Assembly: GCA_021734345.1 (NCBI GenBank)
Contig: JAIPJC010000003.1
Span: 1 to 64,000 of the forward strand
Source of the DNA: Kiritimatiellales bacterium
GTDB lineage: Bacteria > Verrucomicrobiota > Kiritimatiellia > Kiritimatiellales > Pontiellaceae
Direction of reading: 5' to 3'
Length of the DNA stretch: 64,000 nucleotides
Shown here piece by piece: positions 18,913 through 39,448 of the stretch. The number at the start of each line of letters is the position of its first letter. Positions within the stretch are counted from its first letter, which is position 1. The notes under the pieces were generated by a model that made no database searches, was not told where the DNA came from, and saw only the letters and a list, made by a program, of their open reading frames with translations. The position numbers and the translations under genes are program-made.

Positions 18913-19105
18913 CGCGCCTTGCTTCGCTGCGACGCTACTACAAACCTTTTCGCCTTGCTTCGCTGCGACGCTACTACATCCTTTCAAATCTTTCCTGTAC
19001 GTAGTAGGCGCGCAGGCGCAGCCAAGAGCCGTCCCCCGGCAACGCGCCTTGCTTCGCTGCGACGCTACTACAAACCTTTTCGCCTTGCTTCGCTGCGACG
19101 CTACT
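18913..19105. repeat. REP-like repeat cluster: four A arms and one inverted B arm, including a 64-bp exact direct duplication
   Basis: ACGCGCCTTGCTTCGCTGCGACGCTACTACA arms; GTACGTAGTAGGCGCGCAGGCGCAGCCAAG inverted arm at about 18998. Confidence 0.85.
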
Positions 19106-19120
19106 CCATGCGGTTTGGAA

Positions 19121-22525: not shown

Positions 22526-22658
22526 ACGCGTCTTGCTTCGCTGCGACGCTACTACATGCAACCGACACCCCGTATGTAGTAGTTCCGAAGGCGCAGCCAA
22601 GGGACGTTATCCCCGCACTGCGCATAACGCGTCTTGCTTCGCTGCGGCGCTACTACAG
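22526..22658. repeat. REP-like repeat pair (A arm, inverted B arm, A arm)
   Basis: AACGCGTCTTGCTTCGCTGCGACGCTACTACA ... GTATGTAGTAGTTCCGAAGGCGCAGCCAAGG ... AACGCGTCTTGCTTCGCTGCGGCGCTACTACA. Confidence 0.85.
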
Positions 22659-24027: not shown

Positions 24028-24798
24028 CTACATCTCCAGCATCCGCCGCAAACCGAGCATGCCGATGCAAACAACAGCCACCAACCCCAAGGTCGCCGGT
24101 TCGGGAATGGCGGTCACCGTCAGGTTGTCAAACGTCGCCGAAGTCAACGAGGGGTTCCCATCCCCGTACCAGCCGAGCTGGACACGGTTTTGGGTTTCAC
24201 TGGTTCCAGTGTAGGAGGTCTGTCCGGAACCGAAACTGAAGGTTGCCCCATTAAACGTCGCGGCAATGGTGTTCCCTCCTGTGAAATCAACCACCAGTGA
24301 ATTTAATGTTGTTGCAATCGCAGTAACGTCCACCGAAGCCTTAAGTATATTCGAGTCAAAGAAATTCAAATTTTTTGTAGCGGTGCGCGTATCAAACCGG
24401 AAGCTGTAACCGGCGCCGGCCGTGAATCCATCGGCGGATGCCACGCCGAAATTAACCATGGAAAAACCGTCCGCCGGATTCATATTCCTGATGTCCACTG
24501 AAATGCGGACATCGGTCGCGACGGTAGCGAAATCCTTGTCCGGCTGGGCAAAAACCGATCCAGCTCCGCTCGCATAGATTCGCAACGCTTGGTTATCGAT
24601 CTGGGTCTGGTAGTTATTCGCCTTGCTATCCGTCCAAGCAACCGTCGCCTGCGTGCCGGATTGGCGGGCGATGAGGTTGGTATTGATATCTTGCGCGTTC
24701 ACCGTATTGAACGTGTCCAGCAGCAGGATATCCGCAAAACAAGAGGTTCCTCCCAGAACCAGCGCGCCTAGCATCATGGTCTTGATTATCGTTTTCAT
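24028..24798 (-). CDS. PEP-CTERM sorting-domain protein with one 'DTF' secreted domain
   Basis: Signal peptide MKTIIKTMMLGALVLGGTSCFA; C-terminus IPEPATLGLVAVVCIGMLGLRRMLEM. Confidence 0.88.
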   Translation of the reverse strand: MKTIIKTMMLGALVLGGTSCFADILLLDTFNTVNAQDINTNLIARQSGTQATVAWTDSKANNYQTQIDNQALRIYASGAGSVFAQPDKDFATVATDVRISVDIRNMNPADGFSMVNFGVASADGFTAGAGYSFRFDTRTATKNLNFFDSNILKASVDVTAIATTLNSLVVDFTGGNTIAATFNGATFSFGSGQTSYTGTSETQNRVQLGWYGDGNPSLTSATFDNLTVTAIPEPATLGLVAVVCIGMLGLRRMLEM

Positions 24799-24824
24799 TC
24801 CTATCTCCTTAAACGCTTGTTTCA

Positions 24825-26456
24825 CTACTCACCGATTCCAAAGAATCCTGCGGCACTATCGGCCTGCACATAGATTACCTCATTGCTGCCATCCGCTGTT
24901 GAGTAGCTGAGGTTGGTCACAATAAAAGGATCGGAACCATCGATGGAATGGGCCACGTTCGTCCATGTGCCGTTCACCAGATCCGAAATGGTTTTCGGGT
25001 AGTAGTTGGTCGCCGAATCCGGAGCGTCGACCACCATGCGCATCACGTTGGTGGAAAAAACCGACCAGCCCACAATCGTGGCGGGGGTTATCGGGCCGGG
25101 GGGAACCGGTTCCGCAATGACCGTCACCTTCAGGTTGTCGAACATGGCCGAAGTCACGCCCGGTGTCCCGTCGCCGAACCAACCGAGCATGACATGGTTT
25201 TCTGCTTCGCTGGTTCCGGTATACGAAGTCTGCCCGGAACCAAAATCATAGGCGGTGCCATTAAACGTCGCGGAAATGGTGTTCCCTTCTGAAAACTCAA
25301 TGACCAGCGAATCGAACCCTCCCGAAAGAAGCGCTGTAACATCCATCGAAGCGGCGATCGTCGACGTGTTGTCATAGAATTTTAGGAGTTTTACGCCAAA
25401 TCGCGTATCCAGCCGAAAGCTATAACCGGCATTGGCCGAAAATCCGTCGGCGGTCGCCATCCCGAAATTAACCATGGAAAACCCATCGGCGGGATTGGCA
25501 TTTTTCATCCCAACGGAAATACGAACCTTGTTCGTCACCGTAGCAAAATCCCGCTCCAAACGAATCAAGCTTGACGCAGCACTGCCGGTGGTGGAAGCGC
25601 GGAGGGTTCCTCCACTAATCGCTACACCATAACCGTTGTTGGTCCAGCTGGCCGTCGCCAGCGAACCGGACTGGCGATTCAGCAGATCATAGTTGATATC
25701 GTTTGTATCCACAGTACCGAACGTATCCTGCAATAGAACCACTTCCTGGATGGGTGCAGGAATAGAGGCTACCCGCAGGTTGTTGAACGATGCCGAAGTC
25801 AAGCCGCCGGTGCCATACCAGCCCAACATCACACGGTTTTCCGTCTCGGTGGTGCCGGCGTAGCTGGTCTGTCCGGAACCGAAATCATAGACGGCTCCGT
25901 TGAAGGTCGCAGAAACCGTGTTGCCGCCGGAAAAATCGACGACCAGCGACTCGAATCCACCATCGGCCAAGGCATCGACATTCATCGATCCTTTCTGTAT
26001 CCCGTTGTCATAGAAATTGAGGAGCACGATCCCTGTCCGGGAATCCAGGCGGAAGCTATAGCCTTTGGTGCCAACAAATCCATCGGAGGCCGCCATCCCG
26101 AAGTTGACCATGGAAAACCCATTGGTGGTATTATTGTCCTTGATATCCACCGAGATACGGACATTGCCCGCAACCGTGGCAAAATCCTTGTCCGGCTGGG
26201 CAAAGACAGATCCTGCTCCGCTAGCATAGATTCGCAACGCTTGGCTATTGATCTGGGTCTGGTAGTTATTCGCCTTACTATCCGTCCAAGCAACCGTCGC
26301 CTGCGTGCCGGATTGGCGGACGATGAGGTTGGTATTGATATCCTGCGAGTCCGCCGTATCGAACGTGTCCAGCAGCAGGGTGTCCGCAAAACAAGCGCCT
26401 CCCCCCAACATCAACGCGCCCAGCATCATGGTCTTGATTATCGTTTGCATCTTCAT
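24825..26456 (-). CDS. Secreted protein with two tandem 'DTF' domains, no PEP-CTERM
   Basis: Two internal repeats: LLLDTFDTADSQDINTNLIVRQSGTQATVAWT and LLQDTFGTVDTNDINYDLLNRQSGSLATASWT. Start at MKMQTIIK. Confidence 0.8.
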   Translation of the reverse strand: MKMQTIIKTMMLGALMLGGGACFADTLLLDTFDTADSQDINTNLIVRQSGTQATVAWTDSKANNYQTQINSQALRIYASGAGSVFAQPDKDFATVAGNVRISVDIKDNNTTNGFSMVNFGMAASDGFVGTKGYSFRLDSRTGIVLLNFYDNGIQKGSMNVDALADGGFESLVVDFSGGNTVSATFNGAVYDFGSGQTSYAGTTETENRVMLGWYGTGGLTSASFNNLRVASIPAPIQEVVLLQDTFGTVDTNDINYDLLNRQSGSLATASWTNNGYGVAISGGTLRASTTGSAASSLIRLERDFATVTNKVRISVGMKNANPADGFSMVNFGMATADGFSANAGYSFRLDTRFGVKLLKFYDNTSTIAASMDVTALLSGGFDSLVIEFSEGNTISATFNGTAYDFGSGQTSYTGTSEAENHVMLGWFGDGTPGVTSAMFDNLKVTVIAEPVPPGPITPATIVGWSVFSTNVMRMVVDAPDSATNYYPKTISDLVNGTWTNVAHSIDGSDPFIVTNLSYSTADGSNEVIYVQADSAAGFFGIGE

Positions 26457-26617
26457 TCCTATCTCCTTTTTTTGCATCTCCCTCTAGCCTTGGAACCGAT
26501 CCAGAAACCCTTGGGCAACACCCATACCGTAGCACCTTCTCAAATATGCACCTTAAACCCAGTGCCAATCATTCGCACAATACTGCCAGCCAATGACTGG
26601 CGAAAATGGCTCAAGGG

Positions 26618-27334
26618 TTAAGGAATTTTGGTAACCGTCAGATTGTCGAATCTAGCTGAAATTGGGATAGGTGTCCTGTCACCGTACCAACCGAGCAAGA
26701 CATGGTTTTCCGGCGCGACGGTTCCGGTATACAAAGTCTGACCGGAACCGAAATCGTACATCGTCCCATTGATGGTTGCCGAAATGGTATTGCCGTCCGA
26801 GAAATCAACCTGTAGCGAAGAAAACCGATTCATCACCACAATCGATGAAACATCCATGTGCCCCTTCCGCACTCCATTGTCATAAAAGTCGAGATAGGCC
26901 GATCCGGTGCGACCATCCAGACGAAAACCATATCCGCGTTTGGCATCGAATCCGTCCGCACTGGCCATTCCGAAACTCACCATGGAAAACCCGTTCGTGG
27001 CATTCAAGTTGCACAAATCAACCCCGATCCGGACATGCTTTGCACCCTTTGCAAAATCCTTGTCTAGCCGGGCAAAAACCGACCCGGCGGATCCGCTTAC
27101 GTAGAGGCGCAACGACTGATCGTCGATCTGGGTCGCCCAATCATTTTCTGTATTTTCCTTCCACCCTACAGTCGCTTCCTTTCCGGTTTGGCGCCCGGCC
27201 AAGCCTTCGTTTATGTCCTTCGTTGCCGTTGTATCGAACGAGTCCTGGAGCAGCAGCACATCCGCAAAACAAACGGTGCCTCCCACCAGCACCGCACCCA
27301 ATATCACAGCCTTGATTGTCGTTTCCATCTTCAT
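26618..27334 (-). CDS. Secreted protein with one 'DTF' domain, ends at VTKIP without a PEP-CTERM tail
   Basis: MKMETTIKAVILGAVLVGGTVCFADVLLLQDSFDTTATKDINEGLAGRQTGKEATVGW...ARFDNLTVTKIP*. Confidence 0.8.
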   Translation of the reverse strand: MKMETTIKAVILGAVLVGGTVCFADVLLLQDSFDTTATKDINEGLAGRQTGKEATVGWKENTENDWATQIDDQSLRLYVSGSAGSVFARLDKDFAKGAKHVRIGVDLCNLNATNGFSMVSFGMASADGFDAKRGYGFRLDGRTGSAYLDFYDNGVRKGHMDVSSIVVMNRFSSLQVDFSDGNTISATINGTMYDFGSGQTLYTGTVAPENHVLLGWYGDRTPIPISARFDNLTVTKIP

Positions 27335-28416: not shown

Positions 28417-28607
28417 ACGCGCCTTGCTTCGCTGCGACGCTACTACATGCCTTTCCCACTACATACTCCACGCCTCTCCGTACGTAGTAGTTCCGCAGGC
28501 AGAGCCAAGGAACGTTACCTCCGCTCCGCATAACGCGCCTTGCTTTGCTGCGACGCTACCAAATGCATTTTGTATGTAATAGGCACGCAGGCGCAAGCCA
28601 AGGAACA
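28417..28607. repeat. REP-like repeats immediately upstream of the RAYT gene
   Basis: AACGCGCCTTGCTTCGCTGCGACGCTACTACATGCC ... GTACGTAGTAGTTCCGCAGGCAGAGCCAAGGAACGTTAC ... second, more diverged pair. Confidence 0.88.
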
Positions 28608-28660
28608 TTGTTCGCCAACAATCCTTGCCTATTCTTGTTCAGCAAGATAAACAAAGTCCC

Positions 28661-29254
28661 ATGTACCGCTACAAAAACCTTGCCCCGGAAAAACAACGGG
28701 AGTTGCTCCATCATCGCAGGATTTGCGGACTTCCGCTGCATGAGCCGCCGCACTTTGCTGACGGAATCCGCACCTATCACATTGCCGCGGCCTGCTACGA
28801 ACATCGGCATGTTCTCAACACCTCGGCTCGCCGAACGGATTTCGCCGAAACTCTCATGGCATCACTCGAGGCCATCGATGGCCCGGAACTTTTTGCCTGG
28901 GCCATACTCCCCAACCACTACCACCTGCTGATCCGTTGCAACCTCGATCAACTGCGTCCAGCCCTCGGGAAACTGCACAACCGCACGGCGACCCGATGGA
29001 ATAGGGAAGACGGTACACCGGGTCGCAAGGTGTGGTTCCGGTTCACCGACCGCTTCATGCGTAGCGATCGCCATTTTATGGCGACTGTGAACTATATCCA
29101 CGCCAATCCCGTACACCATGGCTATGTCGAGTCCGCCACCGACTGGCCATGGAGCAGCCTCCACCAATGGCTGGAACAATACGGACGGGAAAAGCTGGTT
29201 GCGTTGTGGCACGCCTATCCCGTGCTTGATATGGGCAAAGGCTGGGACGAGTAA
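28661..29254 (+). CDS. REP-associated tyrosine transposase (RAYT; Y1/HUH, IS200-like TnpA_REP)
   Basis: HUH motif LPNHYHLLI and Y1-type NYIHANPVHHGYV, then DWPWSSLHQW; REP repeats on both sides. Confidence 0.9.
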   Translation: MYRYKNLAPEKQRELLHHRRICGLPLHEPPHFADGIRTYHIAAACYEHRHVLNTSARRTDFAETLMASLEAIDGPELFAWAILPNHYHLLIRCNLDQLRPALGKLHNRTATRWNREDGTPGRKVWFRFTDRFMRSDRHFMATVNYIHANPVHHGYVESATDWPWSSLHQWLEQYGREKLVALWHAYPVLDMGKGWDE

Positions 29255-29257
29255 CCC

Positions 29258-29439
29258 GCACGTAGTAGTCGCGCAGACGCAGCCAAGAGCCATTCCCCCC
29301 TGAAACGCGTCTTGCTCCGCTGCGACGCTACTACATACCTTTCAACTCCTTTACGTTCGTAGTAGTTCCGCAGGCGCAGCCAAGGAACGTTACCTTCGAA
29401 CCGCGCAACGCGTCTTGCTTCGCTACGACGCTACTACAA
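29258..29439. repeat. REP-like repeats immediately downstream of the RAYT gene
   Basis: CACGTAGTAGTCGCGCAGACGCAGCCAAGAG ... AACGCGTCTTGCTCCGCTGCGACGCTACTACATACC ... CGTAGTAGTTCCGCAGGCGCAGCCAAGGAACGTTACC ... AACGCGTCTTGCTTCGCTACGACGCTACTACA. Confidence 0.88.
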
Positions 29440-34357: not shown

Positions 34358-34525
34358 GAACGCGCCTTGCTTCGCGGCGACGCTACCACAAACCTTCAAC
34401 GCCTCCCCGCACGTAGTAGGCTCGCAGGCGCAGCCAAGGAACGTTACACTACGCCTACATAACGCGCCTTGCTTCGCGGCGGCGCTACTACATGCCTTTT
34501 CGCCCTGCTTCGCGGCGACGCTACT
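34358..34525. repeat. REP-like repeat cluster between two sulfatase genes
   Basis: AACGCGCCTTGCTTCGCGGCGACGCTACCACA ... CACGTAGTAGGCTCGCAGGCGCAGCCAAGGAACGTTAC ... AACGCGCCTTGCTTCGCGGCGGCGCTACTACATGCC ... partial A arm. Confidence 0.85.
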
Positions 34526-36680
34526 GTCCTAGAACCTGCGCAATTTCTGCGGCGACCTGCACTGCAATTTTTCGCGAACCGGTCTCGTTAAAATGCACAT
34601 TCCCGACGTCGAGAGCATCTTCTTTCGGGAGTGTCCGGGTCAGCGCATACAGGTCGTCGACCCGGATGCCGTGCTGTTTCATGATAGTCGCTGCCGCCGC
34701 GTTGTAGCGCACATCATCCCCTTCAATCCGGCCTGCCTCCTCCGGCGGAATGCGGGTCGTGGCCGCCCATACCAGCTTGGCGTTCGTCTTCTCCAGTCGA
34801 TTCACCAACTGCTCAAGATTCGTCTTATAGAGATTGATCGGTACTGCTATTTTCCCGCCGATCTTGTCGCGGGCGCCTTGAACACGGGTTTCTTTCGGAT
34901 TCCGGTAGCACAGGTCGTGCAGACCCCAGTTGAAGTGAATGACATCCCACTTGCGCCCCTGCAACCAGCCATCCAGCTCTTTCAATCCCACCTCGGTACT
35001 GCCGCAGTTGATCGGCCGGTCTTTCGCATGGTCGTACGGACGGAACACATTTGCCTGGCCGGCGAGAAGTTCGCGGACAAACGGGGTGTACGCAATTGAA
35101 ATCGAGTCGCCGATCAGCAACACGTTCGGCAGATTGGCATCTACCGTTATGTTTTCTTTGCCAACATCGAGATCATGTTGCGGAGTGAATGGTTCCACTT
35201 GATCAGGAGCCGCGCCAGCGCCGTAATCGCAGTCCGGATCGGTCACATACTGGCGGGGGTCGTTTTCCTGATCAAAGTCATAGGGATCGTATTTGTCCCT
35301 GCCGCTACATTCGTCGTGCCATGGAACCGATGCGTCATATCCGGGATTGGGCTGGAGCGTCTGTGCACCAATGGCTTTCAGGTGATCGCGCAGAAACCCT
35401 TGCAGTTGCTTTGCGCGCTCGGGATAGCTGGCAACCAAATCCTTGGTTTCGCCCGGATCATCGACCAGGTTGAACATTTCGATGCGGGCATCTTCGCCAT
35501 AATGTTCAATCAGCTTCCAATTGCCACATCGCACGGCACCATGCGGCGGCATGGTCTGGTAGTGGGGATAATACCAGTAGAGGCAGTTGCGTTCGAGCGT
35601 AGTGCCCCCTTGCAGCAACCCAGCCAGACTCAGTCCGTCGAGGTGTTGTTTTGGGCGTAACGGAAGCCCGGCCATGGCAAGAAACGTGGGATAGAGGTCG
35701 GTGCTGATGACCGGAACCTGGCAGACGCTACCGGGTTTCGTTACACCCGGCCATTTGATGATCAGCGGAACACGGATGCCGCCTTCGTAGGCCTGCGACT
35801 TGCCGGAACGGTACGGAAGGTTGCTGGTGGCCGTGACGACTTTCTTAATCTTCTCGTCGTAGACATTGCTCAGCCCGCCGTTGTCCGAAAAGAAAACCAC
35901 CGCTGTGTTTTCTTCGAGCCCTAGTTCCTTGAGCTTGGCCAGCACGCGGCCGACGCTCCAGTCCATGCGTTCAACCATGGCCGCATAGATAGGATTATTC
36001 TGCCCGTTGGCTCCGGGTGTCTTCTTCCGGTATTTTTCGATCAGGTCCGCTTTTTCCTGCAATGGAACATGCACCGTGCCGTGCGACAGGGTTACCAGGA
36101 ACGGACGGTCGCGGTTGGCTTCCATGAATGACTCGACGTCCGTCGTATACTCGTTGACGAACCAGGGGTCCTGCGGGTTCTTTCCCGCGCGCGCCGGAGT
36201 GACGACATCGAATCCGTACAGCGCCGGCGATTGGCTGCTTACGTGCCACTTGCCGACGTGGCAGGTGGCGAACCCGGCTTCATGCACCGCCTCGGCATAC
36301 GTCACTTCGTTGGTGCGCAGATACTTGATCCAATCGACGGGCGGCACCAGCATGGCCTTGGGATAGGTCTCGCCCGGAATGTATGAGGTCAGATGCAGAC
36401 GGGCGGGATAGCGCCCGGTCAGGATGCTGGCGCGCGTCGGAGAACAGGTTGAATGGGCGGAATAGGCCTCCGTAAACCGCATGCCCTCCGCCGCCAGCCG
36501 GTCGCAGTTCGGCGTCTCGTAATAGTCGCTACCATAGCAACCGAGATCCTTGATCCCCAGATCGTCGGCCAGAATTAAAACAATATTCCGGACCGCCGAA
36601 GGTTCGGCGGCGTGGACTCGCGGCGCCAAAACTGCAACCAGTGCGACGACCAACTTCATTATCCATTTTTGATTCATCAT
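34521..36680 (-). CDS. Sulfatase fused to a C-terminal SGNH/GDSL hydrolase domain
   Basis: N-terminal fGly motif HSTCSPTRASILTGRYPAR; C-terminal VLLIGDSISIAYTPFV (block I) through DVGNVHFNETGSRKIA (D-x-x-H-like block V). Confidence 0.88.
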   Translation of the reverse strand: MMNQKWIMKLVVALVAVLAPRVHAAEPSAVRNIVLILADDLGIKDLGCYGSDYYETPNCDRLAAEGMRFTEAYSAHSTCSPTRASILTGRYPARLHLTSYIPGETYPKAMLVPPVDWIKYLRTNEVTYAEAVHEAGFATCHVGKWHVSSQSPALYGFDVVTPARAGKNPQDPWFVNEYTTDVESFMEANRDRPFLVTLSHGTVHVPLQEKADLIEKYRKKTPGANGQNNPIYAAMVERMDWSVGRVLAKLKELGLEENTAVVFFSDNGGLSNVYDEKIKKVVTATSNLPYRSGKSQAYEGGIRVPLIIKWPGVTKPGSVCQVPVISTDLYPTFLAMAGLPLRPKQHLDGLSLAGLLQGGTTLERNCLYWYYPHYQTMPPHGAVRCGNWKLIEHYGEDARIEMFNLVDDPGETKDLVASYPERAKQLQGFLRDHLKAIGAQTLQPNPGYDASVPWHDECSGRDKYDPYDFDQENDPRQYVTDPDCDYGAGAAPDQVEPFTPQHDLDVGKENITVDANLPNVLLIGDSISIAYTPFVRELLAGQANVFRPYDHAKDRPINCGSTEVGLKELDGWLQGRKWDVIHFNWGLHDLCYRNPKETRVQGARDKIGGKIAVPINLYKTNLEQLVNRLEKTNAKLVWAATTRIPPEEAGRIEGDDVRYNAAAATIMKQHGIRVDDLYALTRTLPKEDALDVGNVHFNETGSRKIAVQVAAEIAQVLGQ

Positions 36681-36718: not shown

Positions 36719-39448
36719 TTATTCGACTTTGACGCGGATAAACTTATGCCCGGTTTCTGTCGGGATGTGGTTGGTGACCGCATCCATTTCGGCGTTGAAG
36801 GTTCCCGCCTCCCCGATGGTGTATCCGGTGTAGTTGGTCCAGTCGACACCGAGGGTCAGATTCGTTTTATATTCCAGCGAATAGCCTAGACCGCTATCGA
36901 AGGCCGAGCGCCTGTAGTAGACATATTCCAGCACGTTGGAGGCGACTGTGCTTGCGGGTAGCAAACCGACATCCATGCCGTCGGCTGGATCTCCGCCAAA
37001 CGAATATTCGTAGAAGTTGCTGAAGTGGTCTCCATCGGGATCCGCCGCAGGATCCGCCGCGCCCGCCACCAACCCATGCAGGATGGTCCAGGCATCGTAG
37101 CCCCCCTTGAGCCTTCCCTCCACAACGAGGTTGTCAAACATGGCGAATGTCGATACGGGGTCTCCATCGTGGAACCAGGACAACATCAATCTGTTTTCCG
37201 GTTCCACCGTTCCGGTGTAGGACATCTGGCCGGTACCGAAATCATAACAGGTTCCGTTAAAAGTGGCCGATACGGTGTGGCCATCCGTAAATTCAATGAC
37301 CAGCGATTCATAGCCCCCCGTCATCAACGAAGTGACATCCATCGAGCCAACCTGCACACCGTTGTCATAAAGCTTTAGTAATTTAGCGGCGTACCTTACA
37401 TCCAAACGGAAGCTGTATCCTTTGTTGGCGGAAGTTCCGTCCGCGATCGCCATCCCAAAGTTGACCATGGCAAAGCCGCCTAGCGGAGTGGGCTGGATAT
37501 CCACAGAAATCCGGAGGTCATTGACCACGGTGGAAAAATCCTTCGCCAGGATTCCAGTCACTGTACCGGCGGCACCGCTCTTGAAGAGTTGCAAGGCATT
37601 CCCTGCGATCTTCGACACATTGGTGGTGGACGACCAATCCATGAAGGCCTCGGTTCCCGACTGGCGACCCGCCAAGCCGACATTGATATACGGACTGTCG
37701 GCCGTGTTGAACGTGTCCCGCAACAGAACGACATATTTCATGAAAAGTGCATCGATTTCCGAATGACCAAGTGCCGAACGATAGATCCGGATCTCATCCA
37801 GCTTTCCGGCGTAGGCGGTATTTCCAATCTCTACATCGACCGGAGCGTTGGCTCTTAAAGCTCCGCTGGCACCGGTTGCCGTCGCACAGGACACGCCATT
37901 GACATACACCGTTGTCGTCCCGGTTTCCTGCGTGTATGTTCCGGCCACGTGGAACCATTTTCCGGTGGTGATCGTTGTCCCGAGAGCAATGGCCGTGGTG
38001 GCGATCCCTTGCCAGGCGTTGTTGACGGTGCCCACCGTGAATTGCGCAACGCCTTCCGAATTGACCGACAATTCATAGACCAGGTTTTTGCGCACGACCA
38101 CGGCGGGCTCCCCGACCGAAGGAAACTCATCAAGATTGATCCAACCGGACACCGTGAGGGACGGCATGGATTCCAAGGAGCTGTGATGCGGCACAAAACA
38201 GTTCGCTCCACCGGACACGCTTCGCAGGCTCTTGTTTCTTGCGCCGGCCACAAACGCCATCGGGCCGTCGCGATACGCATGGTTTTGGTATTGGGAATAG
38301 TCATAGATGTCGTCGTCGAAATCGAACGGCCAATAGCCGACCAGATCCGATAGGCCCAGCGAATAGGATCCGTCCCGGATATCCCGAATAAAATCCAGCC
38401 GAACGCTATCGTTTGTGGAAGCGATGCTGTATCCGGGGGTCAGCCAGCCGCCCTCGGTATTTTCGTTCCAGGCGTACATGATGACCGTGTCGGCCTCTGA
38501 AGCGTCAGCGGAAGTATCAGACCAGACGGAAGCATCCCGCACAAAATCGGCCAGCTCCTTCGGATTGGGTTTTTCGTTCCACCGGTTTTGAACAATATTC
38601 GTCCAAGTGCCTACGGTGTCGTCCGGATTGTCGGCCGCATGATCGGCCCGCGGTCGGCGGTCCCATCCCGCCATGACAAAGGGAACCACCTTGTGTCCCC
38701 CTGCCGCAAAGTCGTTCCAACGGGCTTTCACGTTGTTGACCAACTGACCGTAGGAAAGGCCTGTAGAAGTTCCTTCGGTCGCGTAGGCATAGGCCGTAAC
38801 GGCATCGGCACCCAGAACATCCTTGGCCGCCTGCACCGTTGCCGGATCCCAACCCATGGCAACAAAATAGGGATCGCCCGCGCCCTGTGCTGTCGACATG
38901 GCGGCTAACTCATTCACATTATTCGTCATCCATGCCGCCGCATTAAACAGGTAAACCAACGGTCGCCCGCCCAAGACCTTCTGATAAGAGGCTTCCTTGA
39001 AATAATCGACATAGCGCTGCTTGTGGAGCCACCACTCCCGTCCGTTCAGGATGATGCAGAAATTGATCTGGCTCTTCTTCGAACTGCTCAAATAAAGGGC
39101 CAGCGGCTCGTGCATAGGGTCTTCCGGATAATCCAGGAAAGCCCAGTAGTCCAGCGCCCCTGTAGCCGACTCGATCTCCCGGTCCATGACCGCCTGGGTG
39201 GTGCAGCGGATCTCGACATTTGTGCGCGAGACATTCGAAGCAAAGAACGGCAGGCGGTTCCGCCATTTCTCAGGGTAAATCGCCTCCTCGTTCCATATGC
39301 CATGTTTGAAATCCGGCGTCCCGTATTCGTCGTTCAGTTCGTCGCCCACCCACACATCCCAGCGAATGGCGCCGACCGTGGCCGCACGGCACGACAACGC
39401 CATAACAAACAGCGCGACACCCAAAACCACTGTTTTCTTGAGATGCAT
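36719..39448 (-). CDS. Multidomain secreted protein: GH99-like + LamG-like + DTF domain + DPDGDHFSNFYEY-type C-terminus
   Basis: VGAIRWDVWVGDELN...MYAWNENTEGGWLTPG; LVGYWPFDFDDDIYDYSQYQNHAYRDGPMAFV...; LLRDTFNTADSPYINVGLAGRQSGTEAFMDWSS; ADPDGDHFSNFYEYSFGGDP. Confidence 0.75.
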   Translation of the reverse strand: MHLKKTVVLGVALFVMALSCRAATVGAIRWDVWVGDELNDEYGTPDFKHGIWNEEAIYPEKWRNRLPFFASNVSRTNVEIRCTTQAVMDREIESATGALDYWAFLDYPEDPMHEPLALYLSSSKKSQINFCIILNGREWWLHKQRYVDYFKEASYQKVLGGRPLVYLFNAAAWMTNNVNELAAMSTAQGAGDPYFVAMGWDPATVQAAKDVLGADAVTAYAYATEGTSTGLSYGQLVNNVKARWNDFAAGGHKVVPFVMAGWDRRPRADHAADNPDDTVGTWTNIVQNRWNEKPNPKELADFVRDASVWSDTSADASEADTVIMYAWNENTEGGWLTPGYSIASTNDSVRLDFIRDIRDGSYSLGLSDLVGYWPFDFDDDIYDYSQYQNHAYRDGPMAFVAGARNKSLRSVSGGANCFVPHHSSLESMPSLTVSGWINLDEFPSVGEPAVVVRKNLVYELSVNSEGVAQFTVGTVNNAWQGIATTAIALGTTITTGKWFHVAGTYTQETGTTTVYVNGVSCATATGASGALRANAPVDVEIGNTAYAGKLDEIRIYRSALGHSEIDALFMKYVVLLRDTFNTADSPYINVGLAGRQSGTEAFMDWSSTTNVSKIAGNALQLFKSGAAGTVTGILAKDFSTVVNDLRISVDIQPTPLGGFAMVNFGMAIADGTSANKGYSFRLDVRYAAKLLKLYDNGVQVGSMDVTSLMTGGYESLVIEFTDGHTVSATFNGTCYDFGTGQMSYTGTVEPENRLMLSWFHDGDPVSTFAMFDNLVVEGRLKGGYDAWTILHGLVAGAADPAADPDGDHFSNFYEYSFGGDPADGMDVGLLPASTVASNVLEYVYYRRSAFDSGLGYSLEYKTNLTLGVDWTNYTGYTIGEAGTFNAEMDAVTNHIPTETGHKFIRVKVE

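Follow-up and report, generated by a model that had tools for sequence, protein, structure and literature searches.

The window, by which we mean the whole 64,000-nucleotide stretch analysed, represents contig C124 of a metagenome-assembled genome (MAG; 3.25 Mb, 176 contigs, 85% complete, 2.3% contamination) whose genus is, by inference, Pontiella (Kiritimatiellota). We detected on its plus strand an intact, stop-free open reading frame (rayt, 28661-29254) encoding 197 amino acids, with arrays of REPs on either side. The NCBIfam model NF047646, "REP-associated tyrosine transposase", matched the product at 82.1 bits, a narrow margin over the cut-off of 80, and the Pfam model Y1_Tnp scored 21.5 bits, short of its cut-off of 23. 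The sole significant solved relative by sequence (phmmer) was 4ER8, the TnpAREP of Escherichia coli, which was also the top Foldseek match (E = 1.5e-8) of an AlphaFold2 model with a mean pLDDT of 87; the IS608 and ISDra2 transposases ranked lower. Residues H86, H88, N114, Y145 and D196 are invariant across 39 homologues, and the motifs NHYH (H86-Y-H88) and YIHANP (with Y145, aligned with the tyrosine-containing motif of 4ER8) probably represent the HUH motif and the catalytic tyrosine.

RAYTs are an already known, tame form of "jumping-gene" enzyme. Sequence and modelled fold agree in indicating that the product is a real REP-associated tyrosine transposase (RAYT/TnpAREP), the family to which the first-pass annotation had assigned it on the basis of the same two motifs. 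Two traits are attributed to RAYTs by Nunvar et al. 2010 (PMC2817692), an NP(L/V)(R/K)xG motif after the tyrosine and a conserved threonine near the N-terminus. At the first, the product reads NPVHHG, matching all fixed positions except R/K, which is H here, and most homologues read NPVKHG; at the candidate column for the second, whose equivalence to that of PMC2817692 is tentative, it carries alanine and the homologues T, S, A or I. The gene is single-copy in the MAG with no identical extras, and its next paralogue is 45% identical.

The flanking repeats are one REP in two variants, A and B, which face in opposite directions and both possess a GTAG head and an imperfect stem of their own (Table 1). 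Written with GTAG at the 5' end, the B-type REP (plus strand) is GTAGTAGttccGCAGGCGCAGCCAAGgaaC, laid out as GTAGTA-GTTCC-GCAGGCGCAGCCAA-GGAAC, and the A-type REP (minus strand) is GTAGTAGcgtcGCAGCGAAGCAAGacgC, laid out as GTAGTA-GCGTC-GCAGCGAAGCAA-GACGC. The outer-stem pairs covary between A and B REPs, with 90.7% of cells paired compared with 18-54% after sliding. For the 18 aligned copies, covariation scored above all 500 shuffles, which, because the copies are related, is support and not proof. A and B had at first been taken for complementary arms of a single palindrome, a description that gives way here to one element in two orientations with separate heads and covarying stems. We also rejected A and B together as one long hairpin, since whole-unit folds were not consistently better than shuffles (some A-B units moderately so, z -1.2 to -2.5, and others no better, z +0.7 and +0.9), whereas single REPs covary. 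Mean identity is 91% among A-type arms and 78% among B-type arms, and the spacers between REPs differ; pairing is incomplete in the B-type stems at 19001, 29262 and 34413, and an A-type pair at 18.9-19.1 kb is 99% identical over 68 nt and may be a tandem duplication.

Table 1. REPs and REP arrays of the window, with positions counted from its first nucleotide; for arrays, the position and strand of each head are given.
Feature	Coordinates	Strand	Heads and remarks	Detected by
A-type REP	28419-28446	-	first of upstream array	nhmmer + pattern search
B-type REP	28484-28513	+	upstream array	nhmmer + pattern search
A-type REP	28535-28562	-	head decayed to TTGG	nhmmer + pattern search
B-type REP	28576-28606	+	diverged, closest upstream of rayt	nhmmer
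B-type REP	29262-29291	+	starts 7 bp past rayt stop	nhmmer + pattern search
A-type REP	29307-29334	-	downstream array	nhmmer + pattern search
B-type REP	29359-29388	+	downstream array	nhmmer + pattern search
A-type REP	29410-29437	-	downstream array	nhmmer + pattern search
Distant array A-A-B-A-A	18914-19107		18941-, 18977-, 19001+, 19071-, 19107-; intergenic	
Distant array A-B-A	22528-22656		22555-, 22576+, 22656-; overlaps predicted start of minus-strand ORF	
Distant array A-B-A + decayed A	34362-34527		34389-, 34413+, 34491-, about 34527-	

Within the window, nhmmer recovered 19 REP copies (E 7e-13 to 3e-5), and GTAG-headed REPs total 20 (12 A, 1 decayed A and 7 B) at four places within 15.6 kb. 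Around the gene they run A-B-A-B, rayt, B-A-B-A, which bears out the earlier description of REP-like repeats on both sides; downstream, the closest REP starts 7 bp past the stop, and upstream a gap of about 55 bp separates the end of the closest REP from the ATG. The A-B-A module, which is the basic BIME module in PMC2817692, is present at all four sites. Type and strand go together without exception (A minus, B plus), so the arrays all share one direction, although with four sites this uniformity has a chance of 1 in 8 and is weak evidence. RAYTs are described, in the same text, as delimited by inverted REPs; the two REPs nearest to rayt (28576+ and 29262+) are both of B type and in direct orientation, with inverted pairs found one REP further out. 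In the gap that follows the closest upstream REP and precedes the start codon there is a short perfect hairpin (ATTGTT-CGCC-AACAAT, 28611-28626). Tandem paralogous secreted-protein genes (24028-27334 and 37102-37726; repeat families D1-D11, 60-86% identical) also stand near rayt, inside a sulfatase-rich region.

Genome-wide counts came from pattern searches of the 85%-complete MAG, in which the REP was found only at 18.9-34.5 kb of C124; the first 18.9 kb and the last 31 kb of this 65-kb contig had no REP. The A-type pattern gave 12 matches in the whole MAG and none in its reversed control. Matches to a looser B-core pattern were at background level with two mismatches and, with none or one, occurred only on C124 bar one (C63:493), which was rejected as a dispersed copy because it sits in coding sequence. 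The first-pass annotation had noted few other sites in the window, and there are three, all intergenic (18.9-19.1, 22.5-22.7 and 34.36-34.53 kb), which are also the sole others found in the assembly. All three lie less than 30 kb from the gene (p about 6e-6 if random, for a span chosen post hoc), and further REP copies are possible in the missing part of the MAG. The earlier annotation would have been contradicted by repeats equally abundant in related genomes that lack the gene; none of the other 345 class genomes had an A-type REP at up to three mismatches, and an exact search of GTDB contigs returned no A-type REP (own genome possibly excluded). An empty-site comparison in the 27 congeners was impossible, since none of them has a close orthologue of the sulfatase next to rayt. 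The confinement could have other causes, and the spread could be older.

Homologues of rayt at E <= 1e-40 were present in 28 of these 345 genomes, and at least 444 RAYT relatives were found in the Verrucomicrobia, Lentisphaerae, Planctomycetota, Chloroflexi, Acidobacteria, Cyanobacteria, KSB1 and Poribacteria, one of them on contig NZ_CAAHFH010000002 of Pontiella sulfatireligans F21; the congener G021 carries a RAYT at C2:612179. This wide spread suggests horizontal transfer, as far as such lists of sequence matches go, since MAG mis-binning can inflate them. Relatives at 40-50% identity from many phyla have GNNG-headed hairpins flanking their genes likewise: across 59 full-length loci, 267 such hairpins lay within 250 bp of the gene versus 43 in equal-length distant stretches, and 46 loci had them on both sides. 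The head-hairpin design is kept among homologues despite differing stem sequences.

In the tree, the window RAYT is placed beside other GTAG-headed types with low support. Beside related RAYTs we also observed the heads GGAG (loci L026, L055, L060, L061 and L063), GTTG (L031), GGTG (L059 and L062) and AGAG (L065); the GGAG- and AGAG-headed loci are close together in the tree, and GTTG is a single case. The GTAG and CGTC REP super-families have been described (PMC3733652), as have GT(A/G)G heads (PMC2817692), and the GGAG, GTTG, GGTG and AGAG variants may be new. In a second, distant RAYT clade (L003, L004 and L043; own MAG and relatives), long repeats with the head GGAGTGCG flank the gene at either end, and a third RAYT type (L005, contig C57 of the own MAG) is likewise flanked at both ends by a 95-bp repeat with the head TTGTAGGG.

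Clustering of REPs near a RAYT was also detected at other loci. GTTG-headed REPs of the congener G005 (8.7 Mb, 6 contigs) cluster near the RAYT at C1:3005982 (region C1:2977370-3112362), with four of the eight non-flanking sites no more than 30 kb from it (p about 2e-7), and for the second RAYT of the own MAG (C28) two of five non-flanking REP sites are on the same 28.7-kb contig (p about 8e-4). REPs are dispersed in G053 and G021, and therefore some REP families are local and others genome-wide. Nunvar et al. 2010 (PMC2817692) had already described three marine gammaproteobacteria, and in part Thauera, in which REPs accumulate no more than 200 kb from rayt, and they proposed that REPs form preferentially near a newly acquired rayt. 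A commoner REP class, GTAGTTCCGCCTTTAGGCGG and its variants, was found in congeners with no RAYT match at E <= 1e-40 as well (3-25 copies in each of Pontiella G001, G003, G008, G009, G016, G017, G020 and G025, some of these eight being incomplete MAGs), so REPs may outlast their enzyme, or a more distant or unassembled gene may serve them.

We consider it highly likely that the locus is a REPtron, that is, a RAYT (an HUH Y1 single-strand endonuclease) together with cognate REPs that have multiplied only locally. The TnpAREP enzymes of E. coli, Stenotrophomonas and Marinomonas provide a homologous basis for the mechanism (PMC8266576). By analogy with them, the RAYT would recognise the single-stranded REP via its GTAG head and irregular stem-loop, cut at a dinucleotide near the REP using Y145 and the metal-binding H86 and H88, and rejoin the ends; intergenic DNA close to the gene would in this way acquire A-B-A modules (BIMEs), either as copies or by relocation. 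We infer cleavage activity from this likeness, and the window RAYT has presumably driven the spread of the REPs, whose family is probably young or recently acquired and hence not dispersed genome-wide. The annotation's phrase "intact, recently active" is sound in its first half, the gene being full length and stop-free with its invariant residues in place; recent activity is plausible, although the sequence does not imply it, and the moderate likeness of the copies counts against a very recent burst.

Among known systems, the E. coli REPtron (TnpAREP 4ER8 with GTAG REPs, "group 2" of PMC8266576) shares with the window the HUH motif with one tyrosine, the GTAG head, a stem interrupted by an internal loop and REP arrays flanking the gene on both sides, and the irregular REP stem of the window resembles those of group 2. 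The two enzymes are, however, only about 21% identical over the fold, with an N-terminal extension of roughly 30 residues between them, the REP stem sequences are unrelated, and about 20 local copies contrast with hundreds genome-wide in E. coli. The IS200/IS605 transposases (IS608, ISDra2) share the Y1 HUH core and hairpin ends with a guide tetranucleotide, but 4ER8 is closer by both fold and sequence, Y1_Tnp falls below its cut-off, no identical gene copies occur in the genome, and REP arrays replace single end hairpins. The systems of gammaproteobacteria and Thauera in PMC2817692 have REPs near rayt, A-B-A BIMEs and a likely horizontal acquisition in common with ours, which differs in phylum (Kiritimatiellota) and REP sequence and, set beside the cases given there, is the least numerous and the most closely confined (REPs within 10 kb of rayt as opposed to 200 kb). 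High genome-wide copy number is usual for REPs and BIMEs and is not required, as the localised cases in that text illustrate. With localised RAYT/REP systems already described there in 2010, the window locus is an ordinary further case.

The RAYT may alternatively be a relic whose REPs are no longer made, their confinement marking perhaps the borders of a sulfatase-rich island acquired as a block. The divergence of the copies, particularly the B type and the decayed copies at 28562 and 34527, the partly unpaired B-type stems and the neighbouring sulfatase without close orthologues would all suit such a history, but rayt is full length and keeps every invariant residue, where a relic enzyme is expected to gain stops as the homologues L032 and L062 have done, and the near-identical A-type pair speaks against it as well, unless this is a tandem duplication. 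We therefore regard a relic as unlikely. It is less likely still that the contig was mis-binned, in which case the absence of REPs from the rest of the MAG would be uninformative and the family might be genome-wide in its true host. A MAG of 176 contigs with some contamination leaves room for such an error; however, the GC content and tetranucleotide profile of C124 equal those of 19 other contigs, C124 carries the MAG's only copies of two single-copy core genes, SAHH and KdtA, with best matches in same-genus genomes (92% and 79%), and even within the contig both ends are REP-free. A plain function in transcription termination or mRNA stability, independent of the RAYT, is barely credible for the repeats, although their intergenic position and the moderate single-strand folds of some A-B units might suggest it. 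A terminator has no use for a conserved unpaired GTAG head, and shuffled sequences fold as well as other A-B units do. Moreover, the head and hairpin recur beside rayt in homologues from different phyla although the stems are unrelated in sequence, and the REP occurs only with the window rayt among the class genomes searched.

Returning to the REPtron with locally multiplied REPs, we tentatively suggest, as a reading with somewhat less than even prospects, that this RAYT/REP family has been caught early, with copying that takes place for the most part close to the gene (about 10 kb) and always in the same orientation, and with dispersal to follow later; the GTTG cluster of G005 would be a second instance.

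REPs are among the commonest bacterial repeats, and to our knowledge their formation has never been observed directly. About 20 REPs in one small region alongside an intact enzyme make the locus a tractable system for REP formation, and RAYTs of 40-50% identity with GTAG, GGAG, GTTG and GGTG heads offer natural variants for testing whether the tetranucleotide acts as a guide, as has been proposed. If the early-stage reading is true, REPs would fill the surroundings of a newly arrived rayt first and disperse later.
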